A stretch of 64,000 nt of DNA from Aliirhizobium wenxiniae (GTDB lineage Bacteria; Pseudomonadota; Alphaproteobacteria; Rhizobiales; Rhizobiaceae), in the NCBI RefSeq assembly GCF_014201355.1, contig NZ_JACHEG010000003.1, forward strand, positions 124,001 through 188,000, in the 5' to 3' direction. The position numbers were made by a program, and so were the translations under genes. The notes beneath the pieces were generated by a model. It was not told the DNA's origin, did no database searches, and worked only from the letters and a program-made list of their open reading frames with translations. Positions 8,714 to 36,095 of this stretch are shown here, piece by piece. The stretch's first letter is position 1. Every line of letters begins with the position of its first letter.

Positions 8714-10648
8714 ATGAAGTGGCTGGCGCTATCGCTGTTCCTGCTTTTAGCCGCCGCGCCTGCCTATTCGCAGCCGGCGCCCCCTCTGCCCGAAAAGATC
8801 GAAGCGCTTACAACACTGCTTCAGGATCCCGAGGTCCAGTCCTGGATCAAGCGGGCCGAGGATAAAAGCACGCCGTCTCCGACACCGTCTTCCGAACCTT
8901 CGATCTCGACGTGGGAAACGGCCATCCGGACCCGCATGGACAGGATTGCTGCGGCAATCCCCCGAATCCCAGCTGAAGTTCTGAAGGCTGCCAAACGCGT
9001 CAGGGAGGATGCTGTCTCCAACGGATACGCACCGGTCTTCCTGATGTTTTCTGGGCTCATCCTTGTCGGAATGATTGTTGAGCGGCTTTATCTTCGCATG
9101 CGGTCACATGCCGACAATGGCATTTACGGCCTGCTGTCCGTTTTCGTTTTTGCCGTGCCGCTGGCCATCATATTCTTCGCCGTTCACTGGCCGCCACTTG
9201 TGCGTGTGGCTCTGCTTGTCTACCTGATTGCCTTCGTGGGCTTTCGGTTGGCTTCTGCATTGGTTGTGCTTGCAGTCCCAAGGGAGGGCCTGATACGGGC
9301 ACAGATTCTAGTGGGAGCAGCAGTGCTGGCGATCGCGAATTCGGTCGCCGGTTCTCTGATCGGTATCGATCAGGACGTAGTGGATGCCCTGTCTTATCTC
9401 AGCTCGATCCTCCTTCTGGCCTTGCTGCTGGAGGCTGTCTGGTCGGTGCGGACGCGCAGCCTGCAACGTAGGTTCACGTTGACTTTTGCCATGGTCGTCA
9501 TCTGGGCGCTTTGGTGTCTGGGATTAAAGGGGCTTTTCTGGATCGGGGCTTTTGCGCTGATCCTGCCTGCTACGCTCCAGTCAGTGGGAAAAGCAGCACT
9601 GCGTCTGGTGCCGAATGCCACAGGGATGCGGAGCGTGCTTATCACACGCGGTGCGCGTGCCGCGATCATCGTCGTTGCCTTGGCTTGGCTCGTTTTTGTC
9701 TGGAAGATGAATCCGGAAGGACTTGCGCAGCGGGATCCTGCACTCTCGGCGGTCTTTTATGGGCTGTTGAAAAGTGTCGCAGTCGTGCTTGTTGCCGATC
9801 TCCTGTGGCACATGGCGAAATGCTGGATCGACGGACAGCTCGTCACAAGTGACGAGACAGGTTTGACACCACAGGAAACGTCGCGTCGCGGGCGTCTGCG
9901 CACCTTGCTTCCGATACTGCGAAATGCGCTGGCAGCGGTCGGCCTGACGATAACCGTGCTTCTCGTCCTGGCGGAACTCGGGGTGGAGATCGGCCCGCTG
10001 ATTGCCGGAGCAGGGGTTTTCGGGGTTGCGATCGGCTTTGGCTCGCAGACCTTGGTGAAGGATGTGATCAGCGGTGTTTTTTATATGCTCGACGACGCGT
10101 TCAGGGTCGGAGAATACATTCAGGCGAAGAGTTACAAGGGCACCGTGGAGGGCTTCAGCCTCAGGTCTGTCCGTCTCCGCCACCACCGGGGGCCTATTTT
10201 TACCGTCCCATTCGGCGAACTCGGTGCGGTGGAGAACATGAGCCGGGATTGGGGTGTGGTGAAATTCCGCATTTCTGTCGGTTTCGACGCCGATGTCGAG
10301 AAGGCGCGGAAATTGACGAAAAGGATCGGTGCGACAATGCTGGAGGATCCCGAGTTCGGCCCCATTTTCATCGAACCCTTGAAGATGAAGGGCGTCGAGG
10401 AATTCGGCGATTACGGAATGGTGCTGAGCTTCGGGATGACGCTCAAGCCTTCTCCGATGCAGTCCTTCATCCGAAGGCGTGCAAACCTTCTGTTGCGTGA
10501 GGCTTTCGTCTCGAACGGAATTCAGTTCGCACAGCCGACGGTGAATGTCGGAGGAGAGGGGGCTGCGGGCAATGCGTCTGCGGCAGCATTACAGGCCTTG
10601 AACAAGAACACACAGCCAGCCGCAACCATCGATGGAAACCCGCCATGA
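8714..10648 (+). CDS. MscS-family mechanosensitive channel
   Basis: Inner-membrane mechanosensitive channel, 644 residues. A cleavable signal peptide (hydrophobic run, then AYSQ near residue 20) precedes a periplasmic segment and many membrane helices. The conserved pore helix and beta domain follow: GVFGVAIGFGSQTLVKDV, then the FRVGEYIQ region at about 430-475. The C-terminal alpha/beta domain ends near 600. The size and extra N-terminal helices resemble the YbiO-like large MscS group rather than the 286-residue core MscS. It releases solutes on hypo-osmotic shock. A low-complexity Ala/Asn tail ends the protein. Confidence 0.92.
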   Translation: MKWLALSLFLLLAAAPAYSQPAPPLPEKIEALTTLLQDPEVQSWIKRAEDKSTPSPTPSSEPSISTWETAIRTRMDRIAAAIPRIPAEVLKAAKRVREDAVSNGYAPVFLMFSGLILVGMIVERLYLRMRSHADNGIYGLLSVFVFAVPLAIIFFAVHWPPLVRVALLVYLIAFVGFRLASALVVLAVPREGLIRAQILVGAAVLAIANSVAGSLIGIDQDVVDALSYLSSILLLALLLEAVWSVRTRSLQRRFTLTFAMVVIWALWCLGLKGLFWIGAFALILPATLQSVGKAALRLVPNATGMRSVLITRGARAAIIVVALAWLVFVWKMNPEGLAQRDPALSAVFYGLLKSVAVVLVADLLWHMAKCWIDGQLVTSDETGLTPQETSRRGRLRTLLPILRNALAAVGLTITVLLVLAELGVEIGPLIAGAGVFGVAIGFGSQTLVKDVISGVFYMLDDAFRVGEYIQAKSYKGTVEGFSLRSVRLRHHRGPIFTVPFGELGAVENMSRDWGVVKFRISVGFDADVEKARKLTKRIGATMLEDPEFGPIFIEPLKMKGVEEFGDYGMVLSFGMTLKPSPMQSFIRRRANLLLREAFVSNGIQFAQPTVNVGGEGAAGNASAAALQALNKNTQPAATIDGNPP

Positions 10649-10770
10649 CTGCGAGGCCGCTCTAATGAACGGGCGCCAATCAGGAATGAAACCGGAAGCC
10701 GGTGATTTTCGGTGGTGGAGGCGAGAAGTAACTGGCAACGATTTCTGGTTCGTCTGCGAGGTAACGGATT

Positions 10771-11070
10771 GTGATCGCTCGAGAGACAGATGTTGAGGCG
10801 CTGTGGGGCAATCTTTCTCACAAACAACGTCGAGCGGTCTTGGGAATTTTACTTCGCGATATAGCTAAAGCGTATCGAATGTCGGACGACGACTCCAAAA
10901 TGCGGTGGTCCGGGCCGATCCTGGAGCTCATCGAGATGTTGGAAAGACTCAGACGTGATCCTGCCGATAGCAAACGAGGCGCGGCGCTTGAGGCGATAGA
11001 GCTTGGCTGTCGCTTCACCAGCCAGATTTTGCCGAAAGGCCAAGTTCCATCTGGTCGAGAGACCCAATAG
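10771..11070 (+). CDS. Hypothetical 99-residue soluble protein
   Basis: I do not recognise this protein. It begins with GTG, preceded by GAGG, and encodes a charged, mostly helical protein of 99 residues without signal peptide, membrane segment or cysteine pattern. Motifs such as LSHKQRRAVLGILLRDIAKAYRMSDDD look like a small globular helical domain. Base composition and codon use match the neighbours, which is the main support for it being real. It stands alone between the MscS and DUF2721 genes. Confidence 0.55.
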   Translation: MIARETDVEALWGNLSHKQRRAVLGILLRDIAKAYRMSDDDSKMRWSGPILELIEMLERLRRDPADSKRGAALEAIELGCRFTSQILPKGQVPSGRETQ

Positions 11071-11262
11071 GGTGACTGCGTCCGACAAGGCCTAGCTTTG
11101 CTCGGCGGGTCTATGCGCAAATTGCATTGGCCGGCTTGACTGCAGGATAGCCAAGACTTCCGGTCTGCCCTACCATTTCTCTATTGCTTCAGGTGTTGCT
11201 CCGGTGACGAAGAGGGCTCCGGAACTTCTCAGGGGAGGGCGACGCTTGAACGAGGAGGAAAC

Positions 11263-23713: not shown

Positions 23714-24916
23714 CTATTGGGACAGTATGTACCTGCCATAAAAAATCGCGTAGCCGCAAAAGGCTAGAACCCAAAGCAGACCGGCGAGCGGCAGAAGCAA
23801 CATCGTGTATTGTGGCGCAAGCGCTGCGGCGATGCGTAGTACGGCAGCGGTAACGATTGGCACGTAGATGACGAAAACCGTCGAGGCCGGCGCATGCAGT
23901 GCCTGACCTGAGTGGCCACGGGTTGCGCGGGTCATTACCGCGAGCGTCATGGTGCCGATCGCCCCCGATGTCCACGCATGGATACCGGCCGAGGCGAAGC
24001 TTGAATCATAGGTAAGCAGGGCGATGCCGGTCAAGACAAAGCCAAGTGGCACGAATAGGAACGCGACGTGGAGAATGGTGACGAGCGGTTCGTAGAGCGT
24101 GCGTTCGGGGCACCAGCGCGCCTGCCGGACCAGTTGAAGAGCACCGGCGAGCAGCATCAGGATTGCAGCCGGGGTTGCCAGAGCGTCCCAGTGCGACGCC
24201 AGCGGCCATGCGGCGAGCGCCGTGGTCGAGATCACCATTACGAAAAGGTCAAAACGACCGAAAGGTGGCGGCTCGCGGCCGGGATTATTCTTTCTCAGCC
24301 AGTTGCCGGTAAAGGTGGGAATGATGCGGCCGCCGACGATAGCGATCATCAGGATGATGGCGGATATGGCAAGGCGTCCGGCGACATCGACATGGGCGAA
24401 GCGGGAAAATTCATAAAGGAAAAACGCCTGCGCTGCCGCGATCAGGCCGATCACGGCTGCCAGTTTGTAATTACGTTTGTTTTTGGCCGCCACGACTTCG
24501 CGTAGCGCATAAAGGCCGAGCACTAAGAGGAAGGCGAGATTGATGGCGCTTGAGACGGTGAGGCCGGTATATTCCGAGAGGAAGGTCACCAGCCGTCCCG
24601 CTAGCCAGAGGGCAAACAGAAGAACCAGGGGCGTGCCGGTCAACCGTTTGCGTTTGGTCCAGTTGGGCATGGCTGTCAGTAGGAAGCCAGCGATAATTGC
24701 GGGCACATAACCGAACAGAAGTTCATGCTGGTGCCATGCGATCGGCGACAGTGCCGTCGGCACATGCAGAAAACCGAGATACCACGGCACCCAGAGCAGG
24801 ATCGACAGCGCTGCATAAAGGGCGCCGAACAGAAAGAACGGCCGAAACCCTTCGAGCGCGAGGCTCGAAAGACGAAATTTCCGGGCGGAGGCGGAGGTGT
24901 TCGGCATGGTCAGCAT
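23714..24916 (-). CDS. nnrS: NnrS family protein
   Basis: Polytopic inner-membrane protein of 400 residues, about twelve hydrophobic segments, with the NnrS hallmarks EGFRPFFLFGALYAALS, WHQHELLFGYVPAIIAGF and LTAMPNWTKR near the N-terminus and a heme-type His pattern (ATRGHSG) near the C-terminus. NnrS proteins bind heme and copper and relieve NO stress in denitrifiers. ATG 24916 overlaps the previous gene's stop by seven bases; ATG 24907 is equally possible. It is the last gene of the leftward ABC-nnrS operon. Confidence 0.92.
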   Translation of the reverse strand: MLTMPNTSASARKFRLSSLALEGFRPFFLFGALYAALSILLWVPWYLGFLHVPTALSPIAWHQHELLFGYVPAIIAGFLLTAMPNWTKRKRLTGTPLVLLFALWLAGRLVTFLSEYTGLTVSSAINLAFLLVLGLYALREVVAAKNKRNYKLAAVIGLIAAAQAFFLYEFSRFAHVDVAGRLAISAIILMIAIVGGRIIPTFTGNWLRKNNPGREPPPFGRFDLFVMVISTTALAAWPLASHWDALATPAAILMLLAGALQLVRQARWCPERTLYEPLVTILHVAFLFVPLGFVLTGIALLTYDSSFASAGIHAWTSGAIGTMTLAVMTRATRGHSGQALHAPASTVFVIYVPIVTAAVLRIAAALAPQYTMLLLPLAGLLWVLAFCGYAIFYGRYILSQ

Positions 24917-26130
24917 CTGTCCTGTTCGGTGGTGGCGGGCGACCACAAGAGGGGGAGATAGGCATAAAGCCAGAGAAGGAAGGCGGCAGCCCAGGCGAGG
25001 GCAGACGGGCCATATTGCCCGCCGGGCAACATGAGAGATGGCCAGAATTCCGGTATTACGCGTAGCACCACAGCAGTTAGAAGGCAGAGAATGGCAGCGC
25101 GGGTGAGGCGCGAAAAACCGAGCGCCTGGCCAGTATGCAACAAACCGGCAATCGACGGGACCTGCAACACGCCAAGGCCCAGACCGCCCATCAGCATCAG
25201 GTGCAGGCCGCCGAGCGTCGGAATATTTAGGCCAATCCTGCCGAAGCCGATAATGAGAAGGCCCAGGCCGGCAAGCAGGCTCGAAAGCCACAGGCCTGCG
25301 ATCTCGAACGTCCAACCCTGCCTGCCGATAAAACCTTCGGCGACGCGGTCGAGGAATGCAGCGCCTGTCGCCAGTACCAAGTAGCCGCAGACGGCATCGG
25401 AAAAGCCCGAAAATTCGGCAGCGATCAGCAGTCCTACAAGCCCCGGCGCGAGGTTGATCCGCCCCGGATGCGGCCGGTAGGGCGAGGTTTCCTCACTCGG
25501 GTCGAGAACACGATTGGTGATCGGCACGGTAATGCGAGCCAGAGCCAAGCCGAGAAGGCCAAGAAATGCATATTGCATGAGCCGGATAGCGCGCTCGGCC
25601 AGATCATAGGCGTCCGTCAGCATGGAGAAACGCAGAAGGCCGGCGGCAACTGCCAACGTCGCGAGCAGCGCGACGAAACCGGTCAGCGCCATCGTCCGTT
25701 TTTTCCAGCCCAGACAGGCGGCGTAACCAACAAGGAAAGCCAGCCAGATTTGATCGAGAATGCCACCGAGAACAATTGCGGCATCAATGCCGAACAGGCC
25801 AATCAGCCTGGCCAGAGCCCACAGACAGGCAAGAATAAACAGCGGGTTTCCCTTTAAGCCCCTCGTGTCCGTCCATTCAGGCAAGGCCGAAGTGAGAAAC
25901 CCTAGCAATGCAGCCCCAAACGATCCGATCAGTAGTTCCTGGGCATGCCAGTGGGCTGGCAGGGTGTTGTGAGCGAAGGGCAGGCCGAGCTGCCAGCCTG
26001 CGACCCAAAGCAGAGGCCAGAGAGCTGCGTGCAAGGCAGCAATCGGGAAGAACAACCGCAGCCCTTCGGCGGTCGCTGCCCGCAAAATATTGCGCCATCC
26101 CGGAGAGGTATCAACGGGCATGACCGTCAT
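24910..26130 (-). CDS. Second NnrS family protein (divergent)
   Basis: Polytopic membrane protein of 406 residues related to the NnrS beside it: EGLRLFFPIAALHAALWPLLW, HWHAQELLIGSFGAALLGFL and LTSALPEWTDTRG correspond position by position to NnrS motifs. It is more divergent and slightly longer. Its start overlaps the stop of the upstream ATPase gene by four bases (ATGA), so the two NnrS-like proteins are translationally linked to the ABC transporter. A specialised role, for example handling the imported substrate or a metal/NO adduct, is conceivable but unproven. Confidence 0.87.
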   Translation of the reverse strand: MTVMPVDTSPGWRNILRAATAEGLRLFFPIAALHAALWPLLWVAGWQLGLPFAHNTLPAHWHAQELLIGSFGAALLGFLTSALPEWTDTRGLKGNPLFILACLWALARLIGLFGIDAAIVLGGILDQIWLAFLVGYAACLGWKKRTMALTGFVALLATLAVAAGLLRFSMLTDAYDLAERAIRLMQYAFLGLLGLALARITVPITNRVLDPSEETSPYRPHPGRINLAPGLVGLLIAAEFSGFSDAVCGYLVLATGAAFLDRVAEGFIGRQGWTFEIAGLWLSSLLAGLGLLIIGFGRIGLNIPTLGGLHLMLMGGLGLGVLQVPSIAGLLHTGQALGFSRLTRAAILCLLTAVVLRVIPEFWPSLMLPGGQYGPSALAWAAAFLLWLYAYLPLLWSPATTEQDRC

Positions 26131-26873
26131 CCGGGCCTCCGTTCGAGGAGTTCCTCGACATGTCGAAACAGCGGGTCTTCCTTCATAAAGTGCTGAACGG
26201 TCTCAAAAATCATCCGCTCGTCACGTTCTCCAGGCATGGGTGCGATGTGACGTTTCCCCGATATTCCTTTTCCGCGCCGGTCCAGCACGACGACCCGATG
26301 AGCGATCCGAACGGCTTCTACCATGTCATGAGTGATGAACAGGCCGCCGCGTTTGCCGCTGCCCACATGGCGGATGACGATATCCTGCATATGGCGGCGA
26401 AGCGCGGGATCAAGCGCGGTAAACGGCTCGTCGAAAAACAGAAAATCGGCTTCGCTTGCCAGCGCGCGGGCAATCGCAGTGCGCTGCTTCATGCCGCCCG
26501 AAAGCTGGACCGGATATTTGTCGAGATCTTCGACTTCAAGAGCGACCGCCGCCGCCGCGGCGAGGATACGATCATCGCGATCGCGAGCAGAGAGCCTTTC
26601 CGGAAGCGCCACGCCGATGTTTTTGCGCGCAGTGGCCCATGGCAGTAGCCTTGGTTCCTGAAACACGACTGCGTGTCGTTCATAGGTCCGGATGATGTGG
26701 CCCTGCCGCGGTTCGAGGAGCCCGGCGGCGATATGCAGAAGTGTACTCTTGCCGCAGCCGGATGGCCCGACCAGGGCGACCAGTTCGCCATCGCCGATGT
26801 CGAGCGTAATCCGGTCGAGAACCGTGCGGCCGAGAAACGCGTGCCCGATACCGTTGAGATGGAGGGCGTTCAT
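26127..26873 (-). CDS. NitT/TauT-type ABC transporter ATP-binding protein
   Basis: Cytoplasmic ABC ATPase of 248 residues with Walker A GPSGCGKSTLL, signature LSGGMKQRTAIARAL, Walker B FLFFDEPFTALD and switch His (FITHDM). The size and motifs match the SsuB/TauB/NrtD group for nitrate, sulfonate, taurine or similar small solutes. ATG 26873 overlaps the permease stop by four bases, favouring it over the longer frame. It energises the permease and binding protein encoded just upstream. Confidence 0.9.
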   Translation of the reverse strand: MNALHLNGIGHAFLGRTVLDRITLDIGDGELVALVGPSGCGKSTLLHIAAGLLEPRQGHIIRTYERHAVVFQEPRLLPWATARKNIGVALPERLSARDRDDRILAAAAAVALEVEDLDKYPVQLSGGMKQRTAIARALASEADFLFFDEPFTALDPALRRHMQDIVIRHVGSGKRGGLFITHDMVEAVRIAHRVVVLDRRGKGISGKRHIAPMPGERDERMIFETVQHFMKEDPLFRHVEELLERRPG

Positions 26874-27679
26874 CGTTTGACACCCCACGGCCGGGCAGCA
26901 TGGCGCCAGACCTCCAGTTCGGAACGCGTTGGCTGGATCAGCCCATATTCGACTCCAAGCAGCGCACTAACGGACAGAAGAATCCAAGCAAGCGCGTTCG
27001 CAACGTCGAGGTTCGAGCGAGAGACTGCGAGTGCCTCGCCGATTCCACCTGCATTGGCGAGAAGTTCTGCCATGACTGCCGCCTTGAAAGCGGTTCCGAG
27101 CGCCATGACGAGGATCGGGAGCAGGCGGTTCAGCATCTGCGGAACGGTGATGTGGAAAAATCGACGAACGCGTCCCATGCCGAGCGAGAGCGCCATGTCG
27201 TCGAGCAGCCTGTCGCGGCTGGCGATCCCTTCTGCAGCGCCGAGAAAAACGATCGGCAGACAGGCGACTGCAGCTGTCGTCGTCACTGTCGCCGAACCGG
27301 TGCCGAACCAGATCATCAGAAGTACGATCCAGGCGATCGGCGGTACACCGAGCATCAATGTTATCTGTGGCTGGACGAGGCGCAGGATCGCCGGATGAAA
27401 ACCGGCAATGCATCCGGACACGGTGCCGATCACGCCGGCAAGCGCGAAGCCCGAGAGTGCGCGTGACGAAGTGGTGAGCAAGAGCTGCCAGGCGGAAGCC
27501 TCGCCCAGAAGGGCCTTCGCGGCGGCAAGCGTTTCCAGCGGTGAGGGTAGGATAAAGCTGCCATAGGCTTCATGCGCTACCTGCCAGAAGGCTGCAAAAA
27601 CGCTCAATCCCGCAAGACCGGACCAGCCGGACCAGAGAAATTGTGCCGTTCTTGAAACACGCTCAACAAGTGACGGCAT
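26870..27679 (-). CDS. NitT/TauT-type ABC transporter permease
   Basis: Inner-membrane permease of 269 residues with about six hydrophobic segments and the EAA-type loop around DMALSLGMGRVRRFFHITVPQML. It matches the SsuC/TauC/NrtB permease family. ATG 27679 has GAGGT at six bases upstream; a GTG at 27691 overlapping the previous stop is possible. It forms a complete importer with the genes on either side. Confidence 0.88.
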   Translation of the reverse strand: MPSLVERVSRTAQFLWSGWSGLAGLSVFAAFWQVAHEAYGSFILPSPLETLAAAKALLGEASAWQLLLTTSSRALSGFALAGVIGTVSGCIAGFHPAILRLVQPQITLMLGVPPIAWIVLLMIWFGTGSATVTTTAAVACLPIVFLGAAEGIASRDRLLDDMALSLGMGRVRRFFHITVPQMLNRLLPILVMALGTAFKAAVMAELLANAGGIGEALAVSRSNLDVANALAWILLSVSALLGVEYGLIQPTRSELEVWRHAARPWGVKR

Positions 27680-27687
27680 GACTGACC

Positions 27688-28707
27688 TCACAGATACAGA
27701 CCATCGCCGGGAAGTTTTCCGCCGATCATTTGTGCGTTGGTCTTTGCGATTGCTTCAAGCAGTGCCTCGATCTCGGGGCGCACTTTGCTTGCGGGCGTTG
27801 CGACGAGATTGGAAAAAGGTACGGATTTTTCGATAACCGGCCAGGGCAGTTCCAGCGCCGAAGCGGCGTGGCCAGCCGCGGCTGCCGGGTTGGCAACGAC
27901 CTCGGCGGTCGCTTTTTCGAGACCCGAGAGGAGGGGGGCGATCTTCTCCGGGTGGTCCTGCAGGAAGGCTGGCGCGAGCGCCAACCCCGCTTGAGGCATG
28001 ATGGCCCCAAGCCCCGTCACAGCGCCCCATTCCTTTTGCATGTCGATCACGCGATGAACGGTCTTGCCCGCAGTCGAGGCTTTCATCATCGCAGCGGTCG
28101 CGGCAGGTTCAGGCACCAGTGCCGTTTCGATCCTGCCGGAAAGCAGCAACTGGATGGCCTCAATCGGCGAGCCGGAGCGGCTGACTTTGACTTTGTCAGC
28201 CAGACCGCGATGCGCCAGCACGGCATCGAATACCAGTTCCGGCGTATCGTTGGGGAAGGGCACGGTGATCTCTCTGCCGGCCAGGTCTGCAATGCTGAGA
28301 ATTTCAGGATTGGTCGAGATCACATAGAGCAGGCCATTGGTCATCACATTGGCGAGCTTGACGCCGAAGCCGCGGTTGTTGAGGTTTGCTGCGGCTGTCA
28401 CCGGCATGACCACGGCCTGCATGGTACCGGAGGTGAGGCCCGCGCGCATCTCATCTGGTGTGCGCCAGATGCGGAAACGCACCCGCTCGGCAACATCGTG
28501 CAGCAGTCCGGCGCCAACGGCATAGGCAAGCGTGATCGAAGGGCCGGCCGGCGGGCCGTAAAGCACGAGTTCATCGAGTGTGGCGGCGTTGACACGAGTT
28601 ACGAAAGGAAACGTAAGCGCAGCAGTTGCGGCCGTCTGCAACAGGGAGCGGCGCTCGATGCCGTTCGAGATGTTGGAGTTTTTTTCGGGTTTTCCAAAAA
28701 GATTCAC
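27688..28707 (-). CDS. ABC transporter substrate-binding protein, NMT1/SsuA-like, unknown ligand
   Basis: Periplasmic binding protein of 339 residues. The N-terminus carries a twin-arginine-like signal (ERRSLLQTAATAALTF) with a cleavage-like VNA-A near residue 41, unusual for a simple ABC binding protein and suggesting Tat export or cofactor-dependent folding. The rest resembles the NitT/TauT class (SITLAYAVGAGLLHDVAERV, later EITVPFPNDTPE). It is first in the leftward operon with permease, ATPase and two NnrS genes, and an NnrR-type box lies 56 bases upstream. The ligand is unknown; the setting suggests a solute needed during denitrification, such as an oxyanion or a metal complex. Confidence 0.83.
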   Translation of the reverse strand: MNLFGKPEKNSNISNGIERRSLLQTAATAALTFPFVTRVNAATLDELVLYGPPAGPSITLAYAVGAGLLHDVAERVRFRIWRTPDEMRAGLTSGTMQAVVMPVTAAANLNNRGFGVKLANVMTNGLLYVISTNPEILSIADLAGREITVPFPNDTPELVFDAVLAHRGLADKVKVSRSGSPIEAIQLLLSGRIETALVPEPAATAAMMKASTAGKTVHRVIDMQKEWGAVTGLGAIMPQAGLALAPAFLQDHPEKIAPLLSGLEKATAEVVANPAAAAGHAASALELPWPVIEKSVPFSNLVATPASKVRPEIEALLEAIAKTNAQMIGGKLPGDGLYL

Positions 28708-28762
28708 GACGGGTTCCTTCCATAGGGCGTTAGCAATCTTATCCGGTCCTCAGGCTGCCTCT

Positions 28763-28776
28763 TTGCGTAAGCGCAA
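28763..28776. promoter_or_regulatory. NnrR/DNR-type box (TTG-N8-CAA) before the ABC-nnrS operon
   Basis: TTGCGTAAGCGCAA, flanked by CT and GA as at the nor boxes. Its centre would be at -41.5 for a leftward start near 28,728, about 20 bases before the binding-protein ATG. This places the ABC-nnrS operon in the same putative regulon as nor and hemN. Confidence 0.72.
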
Positions 28777-28802: not shown

Positions 28803-29046
28803 TCAGAAGGGGCTCCTGAGGTCCGCATAAAAGCCGCGACCGTCGTCCGGAATATAGGCGGCCTGTCCCGGGCTCACCTGATCCACCACCAGCGTCGACG
28901 TGGCATATTTCTCGTCGAACAGATCGGTGATCTCGCCAAAGATCGAGAGTTTGTCATTGATTCGGTATTCAGATCGATCACAGTGTGAGGATCGGTCCAC
29001 CATGTGTTCATGTTGTCGACCGGCATCTCGTCTGGCACCCGTTTGA
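28803..29046 (-). pseudogene. TonB-dependent receptor, C-terminal remnant with frameshift
   Basis: Only the last roughly 80 residues of an outer-membrane TonB-dependent receptor remain. The 3' part encodes INDKLSIFGEITDLFDEKYA and ends DGRGFYADLRSPF, a typical last beta-strand with terminal Phe. Upstream the homology continues in another frame (VPDEMPVDNMNTWWTDP, then HTVIDLN), so a small deletion lies near 28,960-28,972. The plug domain and most of the barrel are absent; the remnant starts right after the nnrU stop codon. It probably once served the ABC importer downstream on the same strand. Confidence 0.8.
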
Positions 29047-29048
29047 GG

Positions 29049-29732
29049 TTACATGGTCGCCATGATCAGCGGGTCGGCGCCGAACAGAAAGGCGTGGCCG
29101 CCGAGGAGAAGCCAGAGGGTCATGGCCGCTGTCAGGGCAAATGCAAGCGCCATCGGTGCATCGACCCTCATCCTGTTTGTGCCGCTCGCGAGTTTTGGCA
29201 GAACCAGCAGCGGATGATCTGCGCAAAACGCGCTCCAGCCCAGGCCAAGCCGACGTTTTGCCCGCCTGTCGAGCATCAGGAAGCCGGCTGCGGAAAACAG
29301 GCCAAGTCCGCCGAATAGGATGAGAGACCGCAGGTCGCCATTGGCGATCAGATGACCTCCTGACCAGAAGAAAAAGCCCCATAAAACCGGGTGGCGGGTG
29401 ACAGACACGATGGCGCCGGGCTGGTCCCCGCTACGGAAGGTTATCGAGGCCGGGTTGGGTGTAAATAGGCCGGCAAGCACGAGAAATATACCGAGCGGCG
29501 CGAGCACGAGTGTTACCATGGCATGGCTGCCTGATGGCTCCCAGAGTTCCACATAGGGCGTGTTCAAGGCGGCATGAAACACCCAGACGAGCAACACGGT
29601 CGAGACTATCGAATAGGTCAGGATGTAGGTTTTTCGGCCGAGGATGGCGATCACGCCGCTGCGGATCGGCGGAAGTGCCGGTACGGAATGAAGCAGGACG
29701 AATGCGAACAAGGCGAGATAAAGCTGGCTCAA
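29049..29732 (-). CDS. nnrU: NnrU family protein
   Basis: Polytopic membrane protein of 227 residues with about six hydrophobic segments (LALFAFVLLHSVPALPPIR at the start, TRHPVLWGFFFWSGGHLIANGD near 125). NnrU is found with nitrite and NO reductase genes and is needed for normal expression or activity of these enzymes in some denitrifiers; its biochemistry is obscure. The frame is open far upstream but TTG 29732, overlapping the hemerythrin stop (TTGA) with GGGAG before it, gives the usual family length. It closes the leftward small-membrane-protein, hemerythrin, nnrU operon. Confidence 0.85.
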   Translation of the reverse strand: MSQLYLALFAFVLLHSVPALPPIRSGVIAILGRKTYILTYSIVSTVLLVWVFHAALNTPYVELWEPSGSHAMVTLVLAPLGIFLVLAGLFTPNPASITFRSGDQPGAIVSVTRHPVLWGFFFWSGGHLIANGDLRSLILFGGLGLFSAAGFLMLDRRAKRRLGLGWSAFCADHPLLVLPKLASGTNRMRVDAPMALAFALTAAMTLWLLLGGHAFLFGADPLIMATM

Positions 29733-30205
29733 GCGAAGATCTCCCGTTCTTCGGACTCCGCGGCCAACAGGGCTTCCATCATCAGTTTCTCGGTGGAGAC
29801 GTGGCGGCGCAGGCACTCGAGGAAACTGCACAGCATTCTTGCTATCGTGTCGAGCGGCAAGGTGCACTGGCCTTCGGAAAGCGCCGTGAGAGTCAGCCGC
29901 AACTCTTCTGCCGCCAGTCTGTCGTAACGGTGCTCGGCTTTCAAATGTTCGATAATCATGACCGAAAAACACGAACCCGCGCGATGGTCAAAGCCGGGAA
30001 AGAGAACCTCTTCCTCCAGGTTATGCGTTTCGCCAAGTAGCAGGAAGATGGAGTTGAAAAGGTGTCGTAGGTCGGCGTATTTCGGATCGGTTCCAATTTC
30101 TTCCATAGCCTGCTCAAGCTCAAGGCTCAGGCGGAGGAGTTGCTGGTGATTGGTTTCGAGCCGGCAAATATCCGGTGCGTTCAACGAATTGACTCGGGTC
30201 TTCAT
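29729..30205 (-). CDS. Hemerythrin-like HHE domain protein
   Basis: Soluble four-helix-bundle protein of 158 residues with spaced His/Glu residues fit to bind a di-iron centre: NHQQLL, GETHNLEEEVLFP, EHLKAEH, and RRHVSTEK. Such HHE proteins accompany denitrification genes and are thought to handle iron, oxygen or NO during nitrosative stress. It overlaps nnrU by four bases and follows a tiny membrane protein gene, in a unit divergent from norEF with a shared twin-box control region. Confidence 0.87.
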   Translation of the reverse strand: MKTRVNSLNAPDICRLETNHQQLLRLSLELEQAMEEIGTDPKYADLRHLFNSIFLLLGETHNLEEEVLFPGFDHRAGSCFSVMIIEHLKAEHRYDRLAAEELRLTLTALSEGQCTLPLDTIARMLCSFLECLRRHVSTEKLMMEALLAAESEEREIFA

Positions 30206-30469: not shown

Positions 30470-31045
30470 ATGGCTATGCAAAACGAGATATCAGGTGGGG
30501 CGCTGCATCAGACCTCCCATGAAGCGGCTGTCGATGAGGATGTGCTGCTCCTCTGGATTTTGGTCTGGAGCGAACTTATCGCCTTCGGCATTCTGCTCAC
30601 GGCATTTCTCATCATGTCAGGCATACACGCAGATGACTTTGCGGTCGCCCGGATCCACCTAAACCCCGGCCTTGCGGCGGCAAACACTCTCGTGCTTATA
30701 ACCAGCGGTTGGCAGGCTGCGATCGCGGCAAGGCGGCGCGCGACGCCCTCAAAGGCGCGGATTCCGCTTTGCCTGGCCGCTGCCTTCGGGCTTCTGTTCG
30801 TCGTGATCAAATGTATCGAATACGCCGCCGAGTTCCGTTATTCCTTCGATGCGACTTTCTCTTATTTTTTCCAGCTTTATTTCCTCATTACCGGTTTTCA
30901 TCTTCTCCATGTCGCTTTCGGCAGCTTCGTCCTGCTTCTCGTCGCCTGGCGACCAGCGCGGGGCAATATCCTTCTTATCGCCACACTCTGGCACGCGATC
31001 GATCTTGTCTGGCTGGTGATGTTCCCGATCATCTATCTGGTTTGA
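30470..31045 (+). CDS. norE: NorE, cytochrome c oxidase subunit III-like NO reductase accessory
   Basis: Inner-membrane protein of 191 residues with five hydrophobic segments, homologous to subunit III of heme-copper oxidases (WSELIAFGILLTAFLI, ANTLVLITSGWQAAIA, ITGFHLLHVAFGS, WHAIDLVWLVMFPIIY). NorE with NorF supports NO reductase activity or stability but is not part of the purified NorCB enzyme. The start may be the first or the third codon (MAMQ). norF begins five bases after the stop. Confidence 0.92.
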   Translation: MAMQNEISGGALHQTSHEAAVDEDVLLLWILVWSELIAFGILLTAFLIMSGIHADDFAVARIHLNPGLAAANTLVLITSGWQAAIAARRRATPSKARIPLCLAAAFGLLFVVIKCIEYAAEFRYSFDATFSYFFQLYFLITGFHLLHVAFGSFVLLLVAWRPARGNILLIATLWHAIDLVWLVMFPIIYLV

Positions 31046-31050
31046 ACGAT

Positions 31051-31323
31051 ATGCATGACGCCCGTTTTCCAATACTTGGGACATTTGTTCTCGTTCTTGT
31101 TCTGGCTATCGGCGGTGCGTCGATCGCGACTCTGTCTGACGGCAGCCTGATCGCCATCGGCACTGTCCTCCTGATTGCTTTTGCCAAGGCGCGGTTCGTT
31201 ATTCTCGATTTCATGGAACTGCGTCATGGCCAGCGCGGCATGGCACTCTCACTGCTGGCATGGTGCGCCGTGCTGCTTCTCGTAGCCTTGGCGCGGCCGC
31301 TTCTCGTTTCATATCTCGCCTAA
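31051..31323 (+). CDS. norF: NorF, small NO reductase accessory membrane protein
   Basis: A 90-residue membrane protein with about three hydrophobic segments (FPILGTFVLVLVLAIGG, LIAIGTVLLIAFAKARFVILDFMELR, LLAWCAVLLLVALARPLLV). The KARFVILDFMELR motif is shared by cytochrome oxidase subunit IV-like proteins of the NorF type. ATG 31051 gives the usual length; the open frame continues upstream inside norE and is ignored. Position directly behind norE settles the name. Confidence 0.87.
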   Translation: MHDARFPILGTFVLVLVLAIGGASIATLSDGSLIAIGTVLLIAFAKARFVILDFMELRHGQRGMALSLLAWCAVLLLVALARPLLVSYLA

Positions 31324-31341
31324 GCCAAACCGCTCCCTTCT

Positions 31342-31355
31342 TTGCCAATGCACAA
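31342..31355. promoter_or_regulatory. NnrR/DNR-type box before norC
   Basis: TTGCCAATGCACAA embedded in TTCTTTGCC...CAAAGAAGG, so the symmetry extends well beyond the core. The -41.5 position gives a start near 31,390, leaving about 94 bases before the norC ATG. It indicates norCBQD has its own promoter apart from norEF. Confidence 0.78.
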
Positions 31356-31483
31356 AGAAGGCTTTTCACCGAACAATAGAAAGAAGACGTCCCGCATGGC
31401 CGGCGAGGGGATCGTCCGGCCGCAACATGGCGGGGGATTTCGAGCCGTGGTCACTGACTGCGTCAGATGAGAGGACGTAAGGT

Positions 31484-31936
31484 ATGGCAGAACGCCTCAC
31501 CAAGACCGGAGCCCGCAACGTCTTTTACGGCGGGTCAATATTCTTCTTCGCGATTTTCGTGGGGCTGACAGCCCATAGTCATTGGTACATCCGCACGACC
31601 TCGACGGATGAAACGGCGCTCACCGACAGCGTCGCCCGCGGCAAGCATGTCTGGGAAAGAAACGCCTGCATCAACTGTCACACCTTGTTGGGGGAAGGGG
31701 CCTATTTCGCGCCTGAGCTCGGCAATGTCTGGGTTCGTTATGGTGGCAAGGACGACCCGGAAAGCGCCCGCGACAGCCTGAAGGCCTGGATGGCGGCGCA
31801 GCCCTCGGGCATCGAGGGGCGGCGCCAGATGCCGCAGTTCAATCTGACCGAACAGGAACTGAACGACCTCGCCGACTTCCTCGAATGGACGAGCAAGATC
31901 AACACTCAGAAATGGCCGCCGAACGACGCCGGTTGA
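31484..31936 (+). CDS. norC: Nitric oxide reductase cytochrome c subunit
   Basis: Membrane-anchored c-type cytochrome of 150 residues that passes electrons from cytochrome c or pseudoazurin to NorB. One N-terminal membrane helix (about 14-30) is followed by a periplasmic heme domain with CINCH at 62-66 and probable axial Met116 in RRQMPQF. Length and motifs fit NorC exactly. A GTAAGG site lies before ATG 31484. norB follows after 28 bases. Confidence 0.97.
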   Translation: MAERLTKTGARNVFYGGSIFFFAIFVGLTAHSHWYIRTTSTDETALTDSVARGKHVWERNACINCHTLLGEGAYFAPELGNVWVRYGGKDDPESARDSLKAWMAAQPSGIEGRRQMPQFNLTEQELNDLADFLEWTSKINTQKWPPNDAG

Positions 31937-31964
31937 TGAGCTCGGACCTAAGGAGAAACATGCG

Positions 31965-33311
31965 ATGAAATACCAAACTCAAAAGGTCGCAATGCTGTAT
32001 TTCTACGGCGCCATCGGCCTCTTCCTGGCACAGGTCCTGTTCGGCGTTCTGGCCGGCACGATCTATGTCATGCCAAACACTCTTTCCGAACTCCTGCCAT
32101 TCAACATCGTCAGGATGATCCATACCAATGCGCTGATCGTCTGGCTGCTGATCGGTTTCATGGGGGCAACCTATTATCTGCTTCCCGAAGAAGCGGAAAC
32201 CGAACTCTACAGCCCGAAACTTGCGATCGCGCAGTTCTGGATTTTTCTGATCGCCGCGGCCGTTGCCGTGGTGGGCTACATGTTCAAGATCCATGAGGGA
32301 CGCGAATTCCTCGAACAACCTTTTGCCATCAAGGTCGGCATCGTCATCGTCTGCCTGATGTTCCTCTTCAATGTCACCATGACATCGCTGAAGGGCCGCA
32401 AGACCGTTGTCACCAATATCCTGATTTTCGGTCTCTGGGGGATCGCGATCTTCTTCCTGTTTTCCTTCTACAACCCGGCCAACCTCGCGCTCGACAAGAT
32501 GTACTGGTGGTATGTTGTTCACCTATGGGTGGAAGGCGTGTGGGAACTGATCATGGCCTCGGTCCTGGCCTTCCTGATGATCAAGCTCAACGGGATCGAC
32601 CGCGAAGTGGTCGAAAAGTGGCTCTATGTCATCGTCGGTCTGGCGCTGTTTTCCGGCATTCTCGGCACCGGTCACCACTATTACTGGATCGGCGCTCCGG
32701 GTTACTGGCAGTGGATCGGTTCGCTGTTCTCGACGCTGGAAGTCGCGCCTTTCTTCACCATGGTCATCTTCACCTTCGTGATGACCTGGAAGGCCGGCCG
32801 CAAGCACCCGAACCGTGCCGCCCTTCTGTGGTCGATCGGCTGCTCTGTCATGGCCTTCTTCGGTGCCGGCGTCTGGGGTTTCCTGCACACGCTGTCATCG
32901 GTGAACTACTACACCCACGGCACGCAGGTGACCGCAGCGCATGGCCATCTCGCCTTCTTCGGTGCCTATGTCATGCTCAACCTTGCCATCATGGCCTATG
33001 CCGTTCCGGAAATCCGTGGCCGCAAGCCCTATAACCAATGGCTGTCCATGGTGTCCTTCTGGATGATGTGCACGGCCATGTCGGTGATGACCTTCGCGCT
33101 CACCTTTGCGGGTGTCCTGCAGGTTCATCTGCAGCGCGTGCTGGGGGAAGGCTACATGGACGTGCAGGACCAGCTGGCGCTGTTCTACTGGGTCCGCTTG
33201 GGCTCAGGCGTCTTCGTCCTCATCTCGGCATTGATGTTTGTCTGGGCCATTCTGATACCCGGCAAGGATCGCGTCCCAGCGATTAGCGGCATCGCTGAGC
33301 CGGCCGAATGA
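31965..33311 (+). CDS. norB: Nitric oxide reductase catalytic subunit (cNor)
   Basis: Catalytic heme b / heme b3-FeB subunit of 448 residues reducing two NO to N2O at the periplasmic face of the inner membrane. About twelve hydrophobic segments are visible. The heme and FeB ligand region is present: MIHTNALIVWLLIG, HLWVEGVWELIMASVLAF (with the characteristic glutamates), GTGHHYYWIG and AAHGHLAFFGAYVMLN. This is the short cytochrome-c-dependent form, not the fused quinol-dependent qNor. AAGGAG precedes ATG 31965. A hairpin follows the stop. Confidence 0.98.
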   Translation: MKYQTQKVAMLYFYGAIGLFLAQVLFGVLAGTIYVMPNTLSELLPFNIVRMIHTNALIVWLLIGFMGATYYLLPEEAETELYSPKLAIAQFWIFLIAAAVAVVGYMFKIHEGREFLEQPFAIKVGIVIVCLMFLFNVTMTSLKGRKTVVTNILIFGLWGIAIFFLFSFYNPANLALDKMYWWYVVHLWVEGVWELIMASVLAFLMIKLNGIDREVVEKWLYVIVGLALFSGILGTGHHYYWIGAPGYWQWIGSLFSTLEVAPFFTMVIFTFVMTWKAGRKHPNRAALLWSIGCSVMAFFGAGVWGFLHTLSSVNYYTHGTQVTAAHGHLAFFGAYVMLNLAIMAYAVPEIRGRKPYNQWLSMVSFWMMCTAMSVMTFALTFAGVLQVHLQRVLGEGYMDVQDQLALFYWVRLGSGVFVLISALMFVWAILIPGKDRVPAISGIAEPAE

Positions 33312-33317
33312 GTGACT

Positions 33318-33350
33318 TCCCGGCCCGCGATCCTGAAGCGTGGGCCGGGA
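33318..33350 (+). terminator. Hairpin between norB and norQ
   Basis: Nine-bp perfect stem TCCCGGCCC / GGGCCGGGA with a 15-base loop, followed by TTTATCCTTT. It can act as a partial terminator or RNA-stabilising 3' structure, giving more norCB than norQD product. norQ starts 31 bases later. Confidence 0.6.
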
Positions 33351-33380
33351 TTTATCCTTTCATCCTTAAGGAAATCTCCG

Positions 33381-34184
33381 ATGAACATGCATCTGCGTCA
33401 CTCGACCTCCCAGATCCCGGCCTATGCGCCGGCCGGCAATGAATGCGCCCTGTTCGAAACCGCCTGGACACGCCAGCTGCCTCTACTGCTGAAAGGCCCG
33501 ACCGGTTGCGGAAAGACCCGCTTTGTCAGCCATATGGCGGCAAAGCTCGGCCTGCCTTTGACTACCGTGTCCTGCCATGACGATCTCGCCGCCGCCGACC
33601 TTACCGGCCGTTACCTGCTGAAGGGCGGCGATACAGTCTGGGTCGATGGTCCGTTGACGCGGGCGGTACGCGATGGCGGCATTTGTTACCTCGATGAAGT
33701 GGTCGAAGCCCGCAAGGATGTTGCCGTCGTGCTTCACCCCTTGACCGACGACCGCCGCATCCTTCCCTTGGAGCGCACCGGCGAACAGCTGGAGGCACCT
33801 GGCTCGTTCATGCTGGTGGTCTCTTACAATCCCGGTTACCAGAGCCTTTTGAAGACGCTGAAACCTTCGACACGCCAGCGTTTCGTGGCGATCGAATTCG
33901 ATTTCCTGCCCAAGGCACGCGAGATCGAGGTCGTGGCGGAAGAAAGCGGCCTCGATGCCGCCCGTGTGGAGCCGCTGGTCGAACTTGCCCGGCGGCTGCG
34001 GGCGCTGAAAGGCCATGATCTGGAAGAAGGCGTTTCCACCCGTCTTCTGGTCTATTGCGCGAGCCTGATCGATGCCGGCCTGGAGCCGCGTGATGCGGTG
34101 CGCTCGGCCATGATCGAACCTTTGACCGACGAGCCGGATGTGCGCACGGCCCTCCTTGAACTGATGCAGGCGGTAATCCGCTAA
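33381..34184 (+). CDS. norQ: NorQ, MoxR-type AAA+ ATPase for NO reductase maturation
   Basis: Cytoplasmic AAA+ protein of 267 residues, CbbQ/NirQ/NorQ family. Walker A is GPTGCGKTRF (about 38-47) and Walker B is around GGICYLDEVVEARKD, followed by LPLERTGE and SYNPGYQS sensor regions. It works with NorD to insert the non-heme FeB iron into NorB. ATG 33381 is preceded by AAGGAA; the frame upstream to 33312 crosses the hairpin and is not used. norD follows 12 bases later. Confidence 0.95.
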   Translation: MNMHLRHSTSQIPAYAPAGNECALFETAWTRQLPLLLKGPTGCGKTRFVSHMAAKLGLPLTTVSCHDDLAAADLTGRYLLKGGDTVWVDGPLTRAVRDGGICYLDEVVEARKDVAVVLHPLTDDRRILPLERTGEQLEAPGSFMLVVSYNPGYQSLLKTLKPSTRQRFVAIEFDFLPKAREIEVVAEESGLDAARVEPLVELARRLRALKGHDLEEGVSTRLLVYCASLIDAGLEPRDAVRSAMIEPLTDEPDVRTALLELMQAVIR

Positions 34185-34196
34185 GGGGAGGACGCG

Positions 34197-36095
34197 ATGC
34201 TGGATTTTCTCGAACTCGAAGAAACCGTGGGGCGCGCCTGGCACAATTTTGCCGGCAATACCCGCACCTGGCCGCGATACGAGGCGGCGGCGGTGAAGCT
34301 GGAAGAGGTGCTTCCGGTGATCTCCGTCTGCTTCCGTGGTTTTGGTGGCGAGCGGGCGGTACAGCTCGTTCCTGCCCGGGGCAAGGCATCCGCGCATCGC
34401 CTGAAACTCCGCCAGCGCATGGGGTTGGGAGAGGAAAAGCTCATCCATCCTGCTCGCGACGAGGCATCGTTGATGTTGCCGCCGGTGCTAGACCTGATGC
34501 CACAGCGCAATCTAAACCGCGATCTCTATCTCTGGCTGGCGGCGATCATGGCGCGGATGGATCTTGTCCCGATCGATGAAACCGATCCGCTTCAGCGCGA
34601 TCTCGCCTTGCTCGAACAGGCGGCGCGCCGGGTGGAGGATGTGCTCGAGACCTTTCCGGGGTTGGCGCTGCGGTATCAAAACCTCTGCCTGTCGCTGATC
34701 GAACAACGGCAGCGCGGAAAGCTGCCACGTATCGAGCAGATGGTGGAAAACCGCATCGGCGATCTGTTGCGGCATGGCGCCGGCCTTGCGCCGCTTTACA
34801 AGGCGGGACCGTGGCCGCTGAAGGCGCCGCCCGGTTATCTGCCGATGCTGCCGGTGCCGCTGTGGCCGGACGCGCTGTTGCGCGAGGAAGCCGAGCCGCG
34901 GCAGGAGGAGGATCGTCCCGCCGGTGGTGCATCACAGGATGCCATGGCCGGTGGCCGCCATATCGCCGTGCGCGAAAAGGATTCTCAGAGGAAAGGCGAG
35001 CGCAGCCCGTTTATCCTCAACCGGTTCGAAAAAATCCTCGCCATGGCGGAGATGGTCAATGTCGATCGCCCCGGTGACGATAGTGACGACCATGACGCAG
35101 CGGCGGCCGACGAACTGGACGAGATGACGCTGGGCGAGCGCCAAGGGCGGCCATCGGCAAAGTTCCGTTTCGATCTCGACCTGCCGCCGGAAGCGCTGGT
35201 GCATACGCCTCTTGTCGCCGAACTCACTTATCCCGAATGGGACTATCGTCGCGGCATCTATCTGCGCGATCACTGCCGGGTGTTTGCCGGTCCGGCGCCG
35301 CTGGAGGGCGAGGATTTTCAGCAATCGGACGAGGTCAGAAACCTCATTCGCCGGGTGAGGCGGCAGTTCGAGGTGATGCGGCCGAAACGCGAAATGCTGC
35401 GCGCCCAGTTCGATGGTTCCGATCTCGATCTCGATGCCGTGGTGCGCAGCCGCACCGACCTGAAGGCCAGCGGCGAATGCTCGGACCGCGTCCATCTGAT
35501 GAGCCGGCCGCAAGCGCATGATCTGGCGGTGACGCTGCTTGTCGATGTGTCGCTATCTACGGATTCCTGGTTCAACGATCGTCGCGTGCTCGATGTCGAG
35601 AAGGAAGCGCTGATGGTGCTGGCGGAAGGTCTTTCCGCCTGCGGTGACAACCATTCCATCCTGACATTTACCTCACGGCGTTGCGACTGGGTACGGGTGG
35701 AAACCATCAAGGCATTTGATGAGCCGATGAACCATGCGGTGCGCCGCCGTATCGCCTCGCTGAAACCGGGCTATTACACCCGTATCGGCGCTGCCATTCG
35801 CCATGCAGCGGCAAAACTGTCCGAACAGCCCAACCGCAAGCACCTTATGCTGGTGCTGACCGACGGCAAACCCAATGATGTCGATCATTACGAAGGCCGG
35901 TTTGCGTTGGAGGATACGCGGCGTTCGGTGATCGAGGCGCGTCGCAAGGGTGTGCAGGTGTTCGGGGTTACCGTCGATCAGGATGCCAAATCCTATGTGC
36001 CGGCGATTTTCGGTCAGCATGGATTTGCTGTCGTGCCGGATATCCGCAAGCTGCCTTCGGCACTTCCGGCCATCTATCGCGGGCTGGTCGGTTAA
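34197..36095 (+). CDS. norD: NorD, von Willebrand A domain NO reductase maturation protein
   Basis: Cytoplasmic protein of 632 residues. The C-terminal vWA domain (about 440-630) carries the MIDAS motif DVSLSTDSW and later TDGKPND. The N-terminal part is helical, and the middle is acidic and low in complexity (DDSDDHDAAAADELDE). NorD partners NorQ as the CbbO-like adaptor in activating NorB. An AGGGGAGGA ribosome site fixes the start. Last gene of norCBQD, followed by a strong bidirectional terminator. Confidence 0.95.
   Translation: MLDFLELEETVGRAWHNFAGNTRTWPRYEAAAVKLEEVLPVISVCFRGFGGERAVQLVPARGKASAHRLKLRQRMGLGEEKLIHPARDEASLMLPPVLDLMPQRNLNRDLYLWLAAIMARMDLVPIDETDPLQRDLALLEQAARRVEDVLETFPGLALRYQNLCLSLIEQRQRGKLPRIEQMVENRIGDLLRHGAGLAPLYKAGPWPLKAPPGYLPMLPVPLWPDALLREEAEPRQEEDRPAGGASQDAMAGGRHIAVREKDSQRKGERSPFILNRFEKILAMAEMVNVDRPGDDSDDHDAAAADELDEMTLGERQGRPSAKFRFDLDLPPEALVHTPLVAELTYPEWDYRRGIYLRDHCRVFAGPAPLEGEDFQQSDEVRNLIRRVRRQFEVMRPKREMLRAQFDGSDLDLDAVVRSRTDLKASGECSDRVHLMSRPQAHDLAVTLLVDVSLSTDSWFNDRRVLDVEKEALMVLAEGLSACGDNHSILTFTSRRCDWVRVETIKAFDEPMNHAVRRRIASLKPGYYTRIGAAIRHAAAKLSEQPNRKHLMLVLTDGKPNDVDHYEGRFALEDTRRSVIEARRKGVQVFGVTVDQDAKSYVPAIFGQHGFAVVPDIRKLPSALPAIYRGLVG

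Follow-up and report, generated by a model that had tools for sequence, protein, structure and literature searches.

To our knowledge, the biochemical role of NnrS, a conserved protein of the nitric oxide (NO) response, is not settled. NnrS proteins have been described as containing heme and copper (PMC1274295, PMC4138514), and NnrS has been reported to shield the iron pool against dinitrosyl complexes (PMC9246220). Importers of the NitT/TauT kind (NrtABC, SsuABC, TauABC and ThiXYZ) are among the closest described systems to an ATP-binding cassette (ABC) importer that lies in one operon with two NnrS genes in Aliirhizobium wenxiniae. The operon is located in a stretch of 64,000 nucleotides (nt) from contig NZ_JACHEG010000003.1, positions 124,001 to 188,000, which was analyzed whole and is called the window here. 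Like these importers, it has a single permease, a single ATPase and a binding protein of the NMT1 fold, but it falls below the matched sulfonate, taurine and nitrate cut-offs and has a constant NnrS partner. Comparison with other bacteria reveals that the importer and one private NnrS protein, NnrS1, form a widespread conserved unit. We interpret it as an NO-induced importer for a metal complex, with copper slightly ahead of iron as the metal, that would work together with its dedicated NnrS1, and assign this interpretation a probability of about 0.42. The importer-NnrS1 unit, the loss of an outer-membrane receptor in this strain and the predicted oxidase/NO reductase fold of NnrS1 are new. 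No NnrS-ABC importer unit was found in the literature searched, which is a weak negative because subscription papers mostly fell outside it.

The operon extends from 28707 to 23714 on the minus strand, and its gene order and Pfam families bear out the head-to-tail arrangement of binding protein, permease, ATPase and two NnrS genes that an earlier sequence-only reading had proposed. The binding protein (27688..28707) has 339 amino acids with a twin arginine near its N-terminus, matches Pfam NMT1, and belongs to a distinct family. It is followed by a NitT/TauT-type permease (26870..27691; 273 amino acids counted from a GTG; BPD_transp_1, 69.7 bits), an ATPase (26127..26873; ABC_tran, 101.7 bits) that starts with the ATG at 26873, although a GTG at 26888 is also open, then NnrS1 (24910..26130) and NnrS2 (23714..24916, with its start at the ATG at 24916 or at 24907). 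Of the ATGA overlaps claimed for the junctions, the permease/ATPase and ATPase/NnrS1 pairs are exact as read from the sequence. The other two differ: the binding protein and permease genes share a GTGA overlap, provided that the GTG at 27691 is the permease start, and the NnrS1 and NnrS2 frames share 7 nt, or have a 2-nt gap between them should NnrS2 start at its second ATG. All four junctions are tight.

The same module was sought in other organisms with two peptide patterns, which gave a set of 61 loci (the window and 60 others). The set leans toward close relatives, and some of the 60 loci represent one organism on two contigs (L033/L081, L039/L043). The order binding protein, permease, (receptor), ATPase, NnrS1 is kept in 58 of the 61. 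Two of the three exceptions are contig ends from a single organism (L033 and L081), and the third is an apparent deletion in Devosia indica (L061). There the ATPase and NnrS1 reading frames are joined (L024:6594-8261), but a functional fusion was rejected: the first 88 residues of NnrS1, including the helix-2 histidine, are missing, the related Devosia locus L056 is unfused, and the joined frame is probably the product of a deletion. Seven of the eight relatives fetched first carry the complete five-gene set next to NnrU and hemerythrin genes. The best named relatives of the binding protein are from Rhizobium wenxiniae and R. smilacinae (90-91%).

The unit extends well beyond this neighborhood. 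Annotated plasmid records with the same genes together come from Azospirillum, Paracoccus, Cereibacter, Martelella, Agrobacterium, Chelatococcus, Shinella, Bartonella and Nitratiruptor. The module genes are also present in Aliarcobacter and Sulfurimonas (Campylobacterota) in a changed order, and in a Neisseria gonorrhoeae record together with a receptor in two frames and with other genes or gaps between. In Diaphorobacter, Pseudomonas nitroreducens and Paraclostridium, the binding protein occurs with some or all of the transporter genes and no NnrS is annotated nearby; one Diaphorobacter has the binding protein with receptors only. The Paraclostridium stretch (L101:189-10675) holds the binding protein and transporter with Crp/Fnr, two cupin, hemerythrin and hcp genes, and no NnrS is annotated within it. 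In an even sample of the phylum comprising 398 genomes, with at most five candidates scored per genome, the binding-protein family has 11 copies in 10 genomes, all scoring at least 294 bits, and the other matches listed score at most 63 bits. The sequence-only reading had envisaged uptake linked to denitrification, with NnrS involved in handling the solute; the conserved gene order and the private clade of NnrS1 described next bear this out, and they tie the importer to NnrS far more strongly than that reading could see.

Both NnrS proteins belong to PF05940, to which NnrS1 and NnrS2 match over nearly their full length with 209 and 344 bits (cut-off, 28). Their phylogenetic positions differ. 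A tree of 104 NnrS sequences unites the proteins linked to the module, whether from Rhizobium, Neisseria or Campylobacterota, in a single clade (44 tips, support 0.999), outside of which lie 30 tips labeled NnrS2 and 30 other NnrS proteins. The tree was built after dropping sequences at least 85% identical to a kept one, and its labels comprise 42 NnrS1, 32 NnrS2 and 30 others. The last group, in whose 1.5-kilobase (kb) flanks neither a binding-protein nor a permease gene was seen, consists of 29 sequences sampled from 115 genomes of the class and of the genome's own third copy, a distant paralogue at G000:C2:1541869-1542900 (L119). The NnrS proteins of L094 and L099 are labeled NnrS2 by their best BLAST match though they are module-linked copies, L142 holds two NnrS genes of which the second may be the tip in the tree, and ten NnrS matches in other genomes (including G129, G123 and the second G060 copy, about 200 bits each) have no locus and stand outside the tree. 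NnrS1 does not group with these other NnrS proteins, but NnrS2 does, and it follows NnrS1 in only 39 of the 61 loci. NnrS2 is thus an optional extra and NnrS1 the constant partner, and the "NnrS pair" that the sequence-only reading treated as a unit is not supported.

Three histidines are common to NnrS1 and NnrS2 (H62/H65, H310/H316 and H332/H338, respectively), as is the PF05940 match that they share with the NnrS proteins of R. sphaeroides and V. cholerae. NnrS1 differs from this family in its separate clade, in an ABC importer partner of which the literature searched showed no other report, in lacking H286, which is present in 42 of 48 NnrS2 sequences, and in a set of charged residues of its own (E85, D88, D210, H221, D261 and E265, each in 60-69 of 70 sequences). 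Another NnrS2 histidine, H67 (44 of 48), is variable in NnrS1, where glutamine occurs in 32 and histidine in 26 of 70.

A structure model of NnrS1 (predicted local distance difference test, pLDDT, 93.6) contains twelve long helices and is predicted to have the fold of subunit I of heme-copper oxidases and NO reductases. It superimposes on CcoN with a Z score of 31.1 (367 residues, 3.3 Å) and on NorB with 30.0 (354 residues, 3.5 Å). Identity to the CcoN and NorB chains is 9-13%, Foldseek E-values are only about 1e-3 at probability 1.00, and a profile comparison by hhalign with a small alignment of five NorB/CcoN-like sequences gave a probability of 0.2%. COX1 was absent from the nine families listed in a Pfam scan of 44 members, the NnrS2 sequence had no match in the PDB, and no title in the literature searched places NnrS in the oxidase superfamily, which is a weak negative. 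In oxidases, the low-spin heme is held near the starts of helices 2 and 10, and the histidines of the CuB/FeB center are in helices 6-7. The conserved histidines of NnrS1 are modeled near the starts of helices 2 and 10, and none is found in helices 6-7. Because the former are kept and the latter have no counterpart, the model suggests that NnrS1 is a heme protein without the catalytic binuclear site. The whole NnrS family may share this predicted fold.

Regulation by NO is suggested by a palindrome upstream of the operon. The element TTGCGTAAGCGCAA at 28763..28776 (TTGCG and CGCAA around TAAG) is the sole exact copy in the window and matches the NnrR consensus ctTTGcgnnnncgCAAag (PMC1274295). 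Its center is 62 nt before the binding-protein GTG, and a class II site with transcription beginning at +41.5 would leave a leader of about 21 nt, in agreement with the 20 bases anticipated by the sequence-only reading. Taken by itself, the sequence is weak evidence for the box, and chance is possible: the 6.43-Mb genome has 16 TTGCGN4CGCAA sites and 9 for the reversed control, and the window has 5 sites with at most one mismatch to the box when 4.9 are expected. A chance origin was nevertheless rejected on the grounds of conservation in relatives and of a spacer control across loci. The box is identical in L025, L026, L027 and L028, 62-63 nt from the start codon, and differs by one base in L029, where it lies 64 nt from the start. 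Of the 61 loci, 44 have TTG-N8-CAA ahead of the binding-protein gene, and other spacers occur in 0-6. When loci are clustered by their binding proteins, the counts are 24 of 38 clusters at 90% identity (other spacers, 0-5), 16 of 27 at 80% (0-5) and 10 of 17 at 70% (0-2). Because the box is conserved at a fixed distance in relatives and across the 61 loci, it is taken to be a real NnrR-type box at a class II position, through which NnrR would turn on the operon under denitrification.

The distribution and neighborhood of the operon also connect it to denitrification. Among 36 genomes of the genus, the binding protein is found in 8, and norB is present in 7 of these 8 carriers and 9 of the 28 others (Fisher p 0.012, not corrected for relatedness). 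The operon thus favors denitrifiers, but it is not required for denitrification, as those 9 genomes without it have norB, and it is not restricted to denitrifiers, as G025 and G040 gave no norB match. Genes for nor, nap, nirK, NnrU or hemerythrin are found in the fetched stretch of 31 of the 61 loci, Crp/Fnr genes lie beside distant members of the module, and several loci have neighbors that presumably belong to anaerobic ubiquinone synthesis. Neighbors related to iron occur as well. The Nitratiruptor copy is flanked by genes for a transcriptional repressor, ferritin, FTR1 and imelysin, the Cereibacter copy has heme, iron-transport and FeoA genes nearby, and the Bartonella copy adjoins genes of an iron ABC transporter.

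In the window itself, a hemerythrin-domain protein (PF01814, 29729..30205, minus strand) and NnrU (29049..29972, minus strand, PF07298 at residues 84-301, true start probably near 29730) lie upstream of the operon, followed by a divergent NO reductase operon (30470..36095, plus strand). Judging by their families, we take its genes to be norE (whose product alone was scanned against Pfam), a short open reading frame (ORF) in the place of norF, norC, norB, norQ and norD, and those to its right presumably are hemN-like, napC/napA-like and nirK/nirV-like ORFs, named from homology. The nor side has imperfect NnrR-type sites only (30403, 30423 and 31342), and a perfect FNR-type palindrome, TTGATAAAAATCAA, lies upstream of the nirK-like gene at 43398-43411. 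A search of viral contigs found no relative.

Between NnrU and the operon lies the trace of a lost gene. In L017 and L018, an intact gene for a TonB-dependent receptor is located between NnrU and the binding protein. The window retains only the last 246 bases of such a gene, out of frame (28803..29048, minus strand), and in an alignment of 253 columns with the 3' end of the L017 gene, nucleotide identity is 84.6%. The receptor has been lost in the window strain. This loss raises the question of whether the operon itself is decaying and without function, all the more as no receptor orthologue was found elsewhere in the genome at E 1e-30. The ratio of nonsynonymous to synonymous substitution (dN/dS) is 0.10-0.19 for all five genes, also in comparison with L025, another lineage without the receptor, and the NnrR-type box is perfectly kept. 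All five genes are under purifying selection, and decay is the least probable of the explanations considered here, to be discounted almost entirely.

The sequence-only reading had looked to TonB receptors as partners, and orthologues of this receptor, here called FFGG-type, accompany the module in 20 of 61 loci. They are encoded upstream of the binding protein, with the gene divergent in L068 and L071, or, in Azospirillum and Caenispirillum, between permease and ATPase. Apart from small changes, the plug motif FFGGNDQPRIQIRGSGLQQNP is conserved, and of 29 receptor genes examined, 21 are preceded by a TTG-N8-CAA site of their own. Among 18 carrier genomes tested at E 1e-30, a close receptor was found in G028 and G007 only, and a distant one in G308.

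In other loci, the place of this receptor is taken by a barrel that resembles the copper receptor OprC. In five loci such a barrel is encoded no more than 70 nt ahead of the binding-protein gene, namely in two Neisseria-like ones, Phreatobacter, Rhabdaerophilum and L186 (L050:7874-9883; L072, ending at 9865, the same locus as L180:9755-11716; L182:10462-12381; L186:7517-9403; and L092, in two frames), and in L076 (to 9333) and L083 (to 8934) the distance is about 0.6 and 1 kb, respectively. The barrels of all seven loci belong to one group. The four scanned match the OprC/NosA model TIGR01778, and the PDB relatives of the two barrels searched are OprC, apart from one weak match. FFGG-type receptors and OprC-like barrels were never together in the loci examined. 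In the Neisseria gonorrhoeae locus (L092:4937-6857), the receptor is split over two frames and the NnrS frame is short; the receptor of the Neisseria-like L182 is undivided. An assignment of the Neisseria receptor to TdfF was considered but not confirmed, and is not claimed. In L186, the gene directly after the binding protein (10402-11220) encodes 272 amino acids that begin like a signal sequence and match no Pfam family. Other partners include the L181 receptor, whose closest model is the hemin receptor one (278 of 317 bits), a small phenol-MetA-type barrel with the Sulfurimonas copy, and a similar one, judged by eye, with the Nitratiruptor copy.

These observations can be joined in a tentative scheme. 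NO or nitrite respiration would act through NnrR to turn the operon on, with an iron-type repressor as a possible second condition in other Rhizobiaceae. Where it is kept, the outer-membrane receptor would pass the compound to the binding protein, and in the window strain the complex would cross the outer membrane by another route. The binding protein would catch a metal complex in the periplasm, a copper chelate being somewhat likelier than an iron chelate, and hand it to the ABC transporter, and NnrS1 at the membrane may handle the imported metal or its redox or nitrosyl state. Such a handling step fits the protection of the iron pool from dinitrosyl complexes attributed to NnrS (PMC9246220). 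A metal complex is favored because of the OprC-like barrels, the hemin-type receptor, the iron-type box described below, the iron-related neighbor genes and this role of NnrS; copper is placed slightly ahead because of OprC and because NnrS has been described as containing heme and copper. The sequence-only reading had suggested a cofactor or metal complex from a Tat-like signal on the binding protein. A metal complex gains partial support from the OprC-like barrels and the one hemin-receptor-like partner; two adjacent arginines near the N-terminus are common (64 of 78 binding-protein sequences) but prove no cofactor.

Several observations weigh against a metal complex. The four OprC-like barrels that were scanned score 174-195 bits against TIGR01778, far below its cut-off of 472, and no Pfam plug domain was found in them; no such barrel is present in the window, and the missing receptor orthologue noted above also counts here. 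The FFGG-type receptor was not found in 41 of 61 loci, of which only 4 have an OprC-like barrel, and 37 of the 61 have neither type, though contig ends truncate some loci. The receptor in Aliarcobacter gives no specific match (hemin 204, B12 197 and siderophore 193 bits). Neither the window nor its close relatives (L025-L030) have the iron-type palindrome at the corresponding position, 26 of 29 receptor genes lack it upstream, and its register also fits an NsrR-like site. The norB-positive congeners without the operon belong on this side as well. Finally, the nearest structures with known ligands bind pyrroloquinoline quinone (PQQ), sulfonates, bicarbonate, nitrate or thiamine precursors, and no histidine, cysteine or methionine of the binding protein is conserved at 90%. 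Because of the latter, the protein is improbable as a binder of bare metal ions, and its ligand is more likely to be organic or a chelate.

The last two points lead to the main rival of the metal complex. The importer might carry an organic cofactor or precursor (PQQ-like, thiamine-precursor-like or another small aromatic acid) that NO damages in its synthesis or use, with NnrS1 as a redox partner that uses or protects it. The binding-protein model (pLDDT 92) is close to PqqT with PQQ (Z score 26, 19% identity), SsuA, TauA, THI5 and a thiamine-binding protein, and its residues include no conserved metal ligands of the kind just named, those that are conserved including W81, D85, R88, D154, E200, Q224 and W227. 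Moreover, the nearest solved relative of the L017 receptor is PqqU (YncD), at 85 bits with the next at 31. PqqU receptors are distinguished by Y, F or W at position 99 together with R304 and R365 (PMC12124388). The FFGG-type receptor departs from this: the diagnostic Y99 is replaced by proline and Q84 by aspartate, with the motif kept across relatives; R304 and R365 fall outside the aligned part. The likeness to PqqT is one of fold, with a profile score of only 20 bits, below SsuA and THI5. No Rfam family was found at gathering score in 20000-46000, hence no known riboswitch there, and the OprC-like and hemin-like partners elsewhere point to metals. An organic cofactor is accordingly possible but doubtful.

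The same comparisons bear on an ordinary importer of nitrate, taurine, sulfonate or a thiamine precursor that happens to lie in a denitrification island. The NMT1-type fold and the NitT/TauT-type permease and ATPase are what such a system would have, though the NMT1 match itself is weak (29.4 bits; cut-off, 20.5). The binding protein scores 30.2 of the 163.5 bits required by the SsuA model TIGR01728 and 18.8 of the 304.25 bits of the taurine model TIGR01729, both far below cut-off. Likewise, the permease reaches 45.6 of 209 bits against the nitrate model ntrB (TIGR01183) and the ATPase 139.8 of 291.8 against ntrCD (TIGR01184), the best NCBIfam matches of the permease, SaoP and SsuC, are far below cut-off, and no thiamine-precursor model is listed for the binding protein at E 0.001. 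The sharp gap around the family in the 398 genomes and the constancy of NnrS1 are further points against an ordinary importer, which is very improbable. The closest structure to the binding protein is 3hn0, Parabacteroides BDI_1369, named a "nitrate transport protein". It leads both the structural matches (Z score 33.3, followed at 25-26 by 3un6, PqqT, SsuA, CmpA and NrtA) and the PDB profile matches (63.6 bits; next, 37.5). The two proteins are only about 20% identical but share PD, AANLYNKG and GGRLPD motifs, and BDI_1369 is probably a distant member of the family.

A second palindrome raises the question of which metal would be imported. In 23 of the 61 loci, TGA-N9-TCA lies 26-29 nt past the NnrR-type box (mean in shuffled sequence, 0.01), with its center at the transcription start expected from the class II site. 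These loci lie among L031-L049, L051, L075, L079, L081 and L082, largely related lineages that are more distant Rhizobiaceae. The published RirA motif is TGA-(N9)-TCA (PMC8822346), and the NsrR motif gATGyAT-N5-ATrCATc (PMC1274295) shares its register. Because the inner bases of the palindromes fit the NsrR motif poorly, a RirA-type site seems likelier than an NsrR-like one. Strong support for this element comes only from the fixed-distance test: counting spacers alone sets it apart less clearly (30 of 61 loci, compared with 18 for N6 and 13 for N11), and at 70% clustering, TGA-N9-TCA is found in 6 of 17 clusters and N6 in 5. The arrangement of the two palindromes predicts a gate that responds to NO and iron.

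The importer might be specific for iron rather than copper, as a ferric chelate or iron-nitrosyl complex. NO would wreck the iron pool, and the cell would re-import iron and denitrosylate it through NnrS1. The RirA-type palindrome at the expected transcription start, the iron-related neighbors in Nitratiruptor, Cereibacter and Bartonella and the reported protection of the iron pool by NnrS are consistent with this. The gaps in the distribution of the palindrome listed above argue against it, as does the chance that another Rrf2 regulator such as NsrR uses the site, and the OprC-like partners point to copper. We consider an importer for iron alone unlikely. The metal-complex importer, with copper slightly ahead, remains our preferred interpretation. 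A more specific form of it would make the module an undescribed class of import machine, in which an ABC importer would have as its dedicated membrane partner a stripped NnrS1 of the heme-copper oxidase fold that takes over or redox-processes the imported copper or iron complex under NO stress, fed by interchangeable receptors of the FFGG-type TonB or OprC-like kind; this, too, is improbable as it stands.

The subfamily of NnrS that is locked to an importer offers a handle on the role of NnrS, for the cargo of the importer is what NnrS1 acts on or acts with. As the binding protein is soluble, has a well-predicted structure and is conserved across Rhizobium, Neisseria and Campylobacterota, its ligand is directly findable. 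If confirmed, the fold match would give NnrS a place in a known superfamily. If the ligand proves to be a copper or iron complex, the module would show how denitrifying, NO-exposed bacteria secure metal while NO attacks metal centers.

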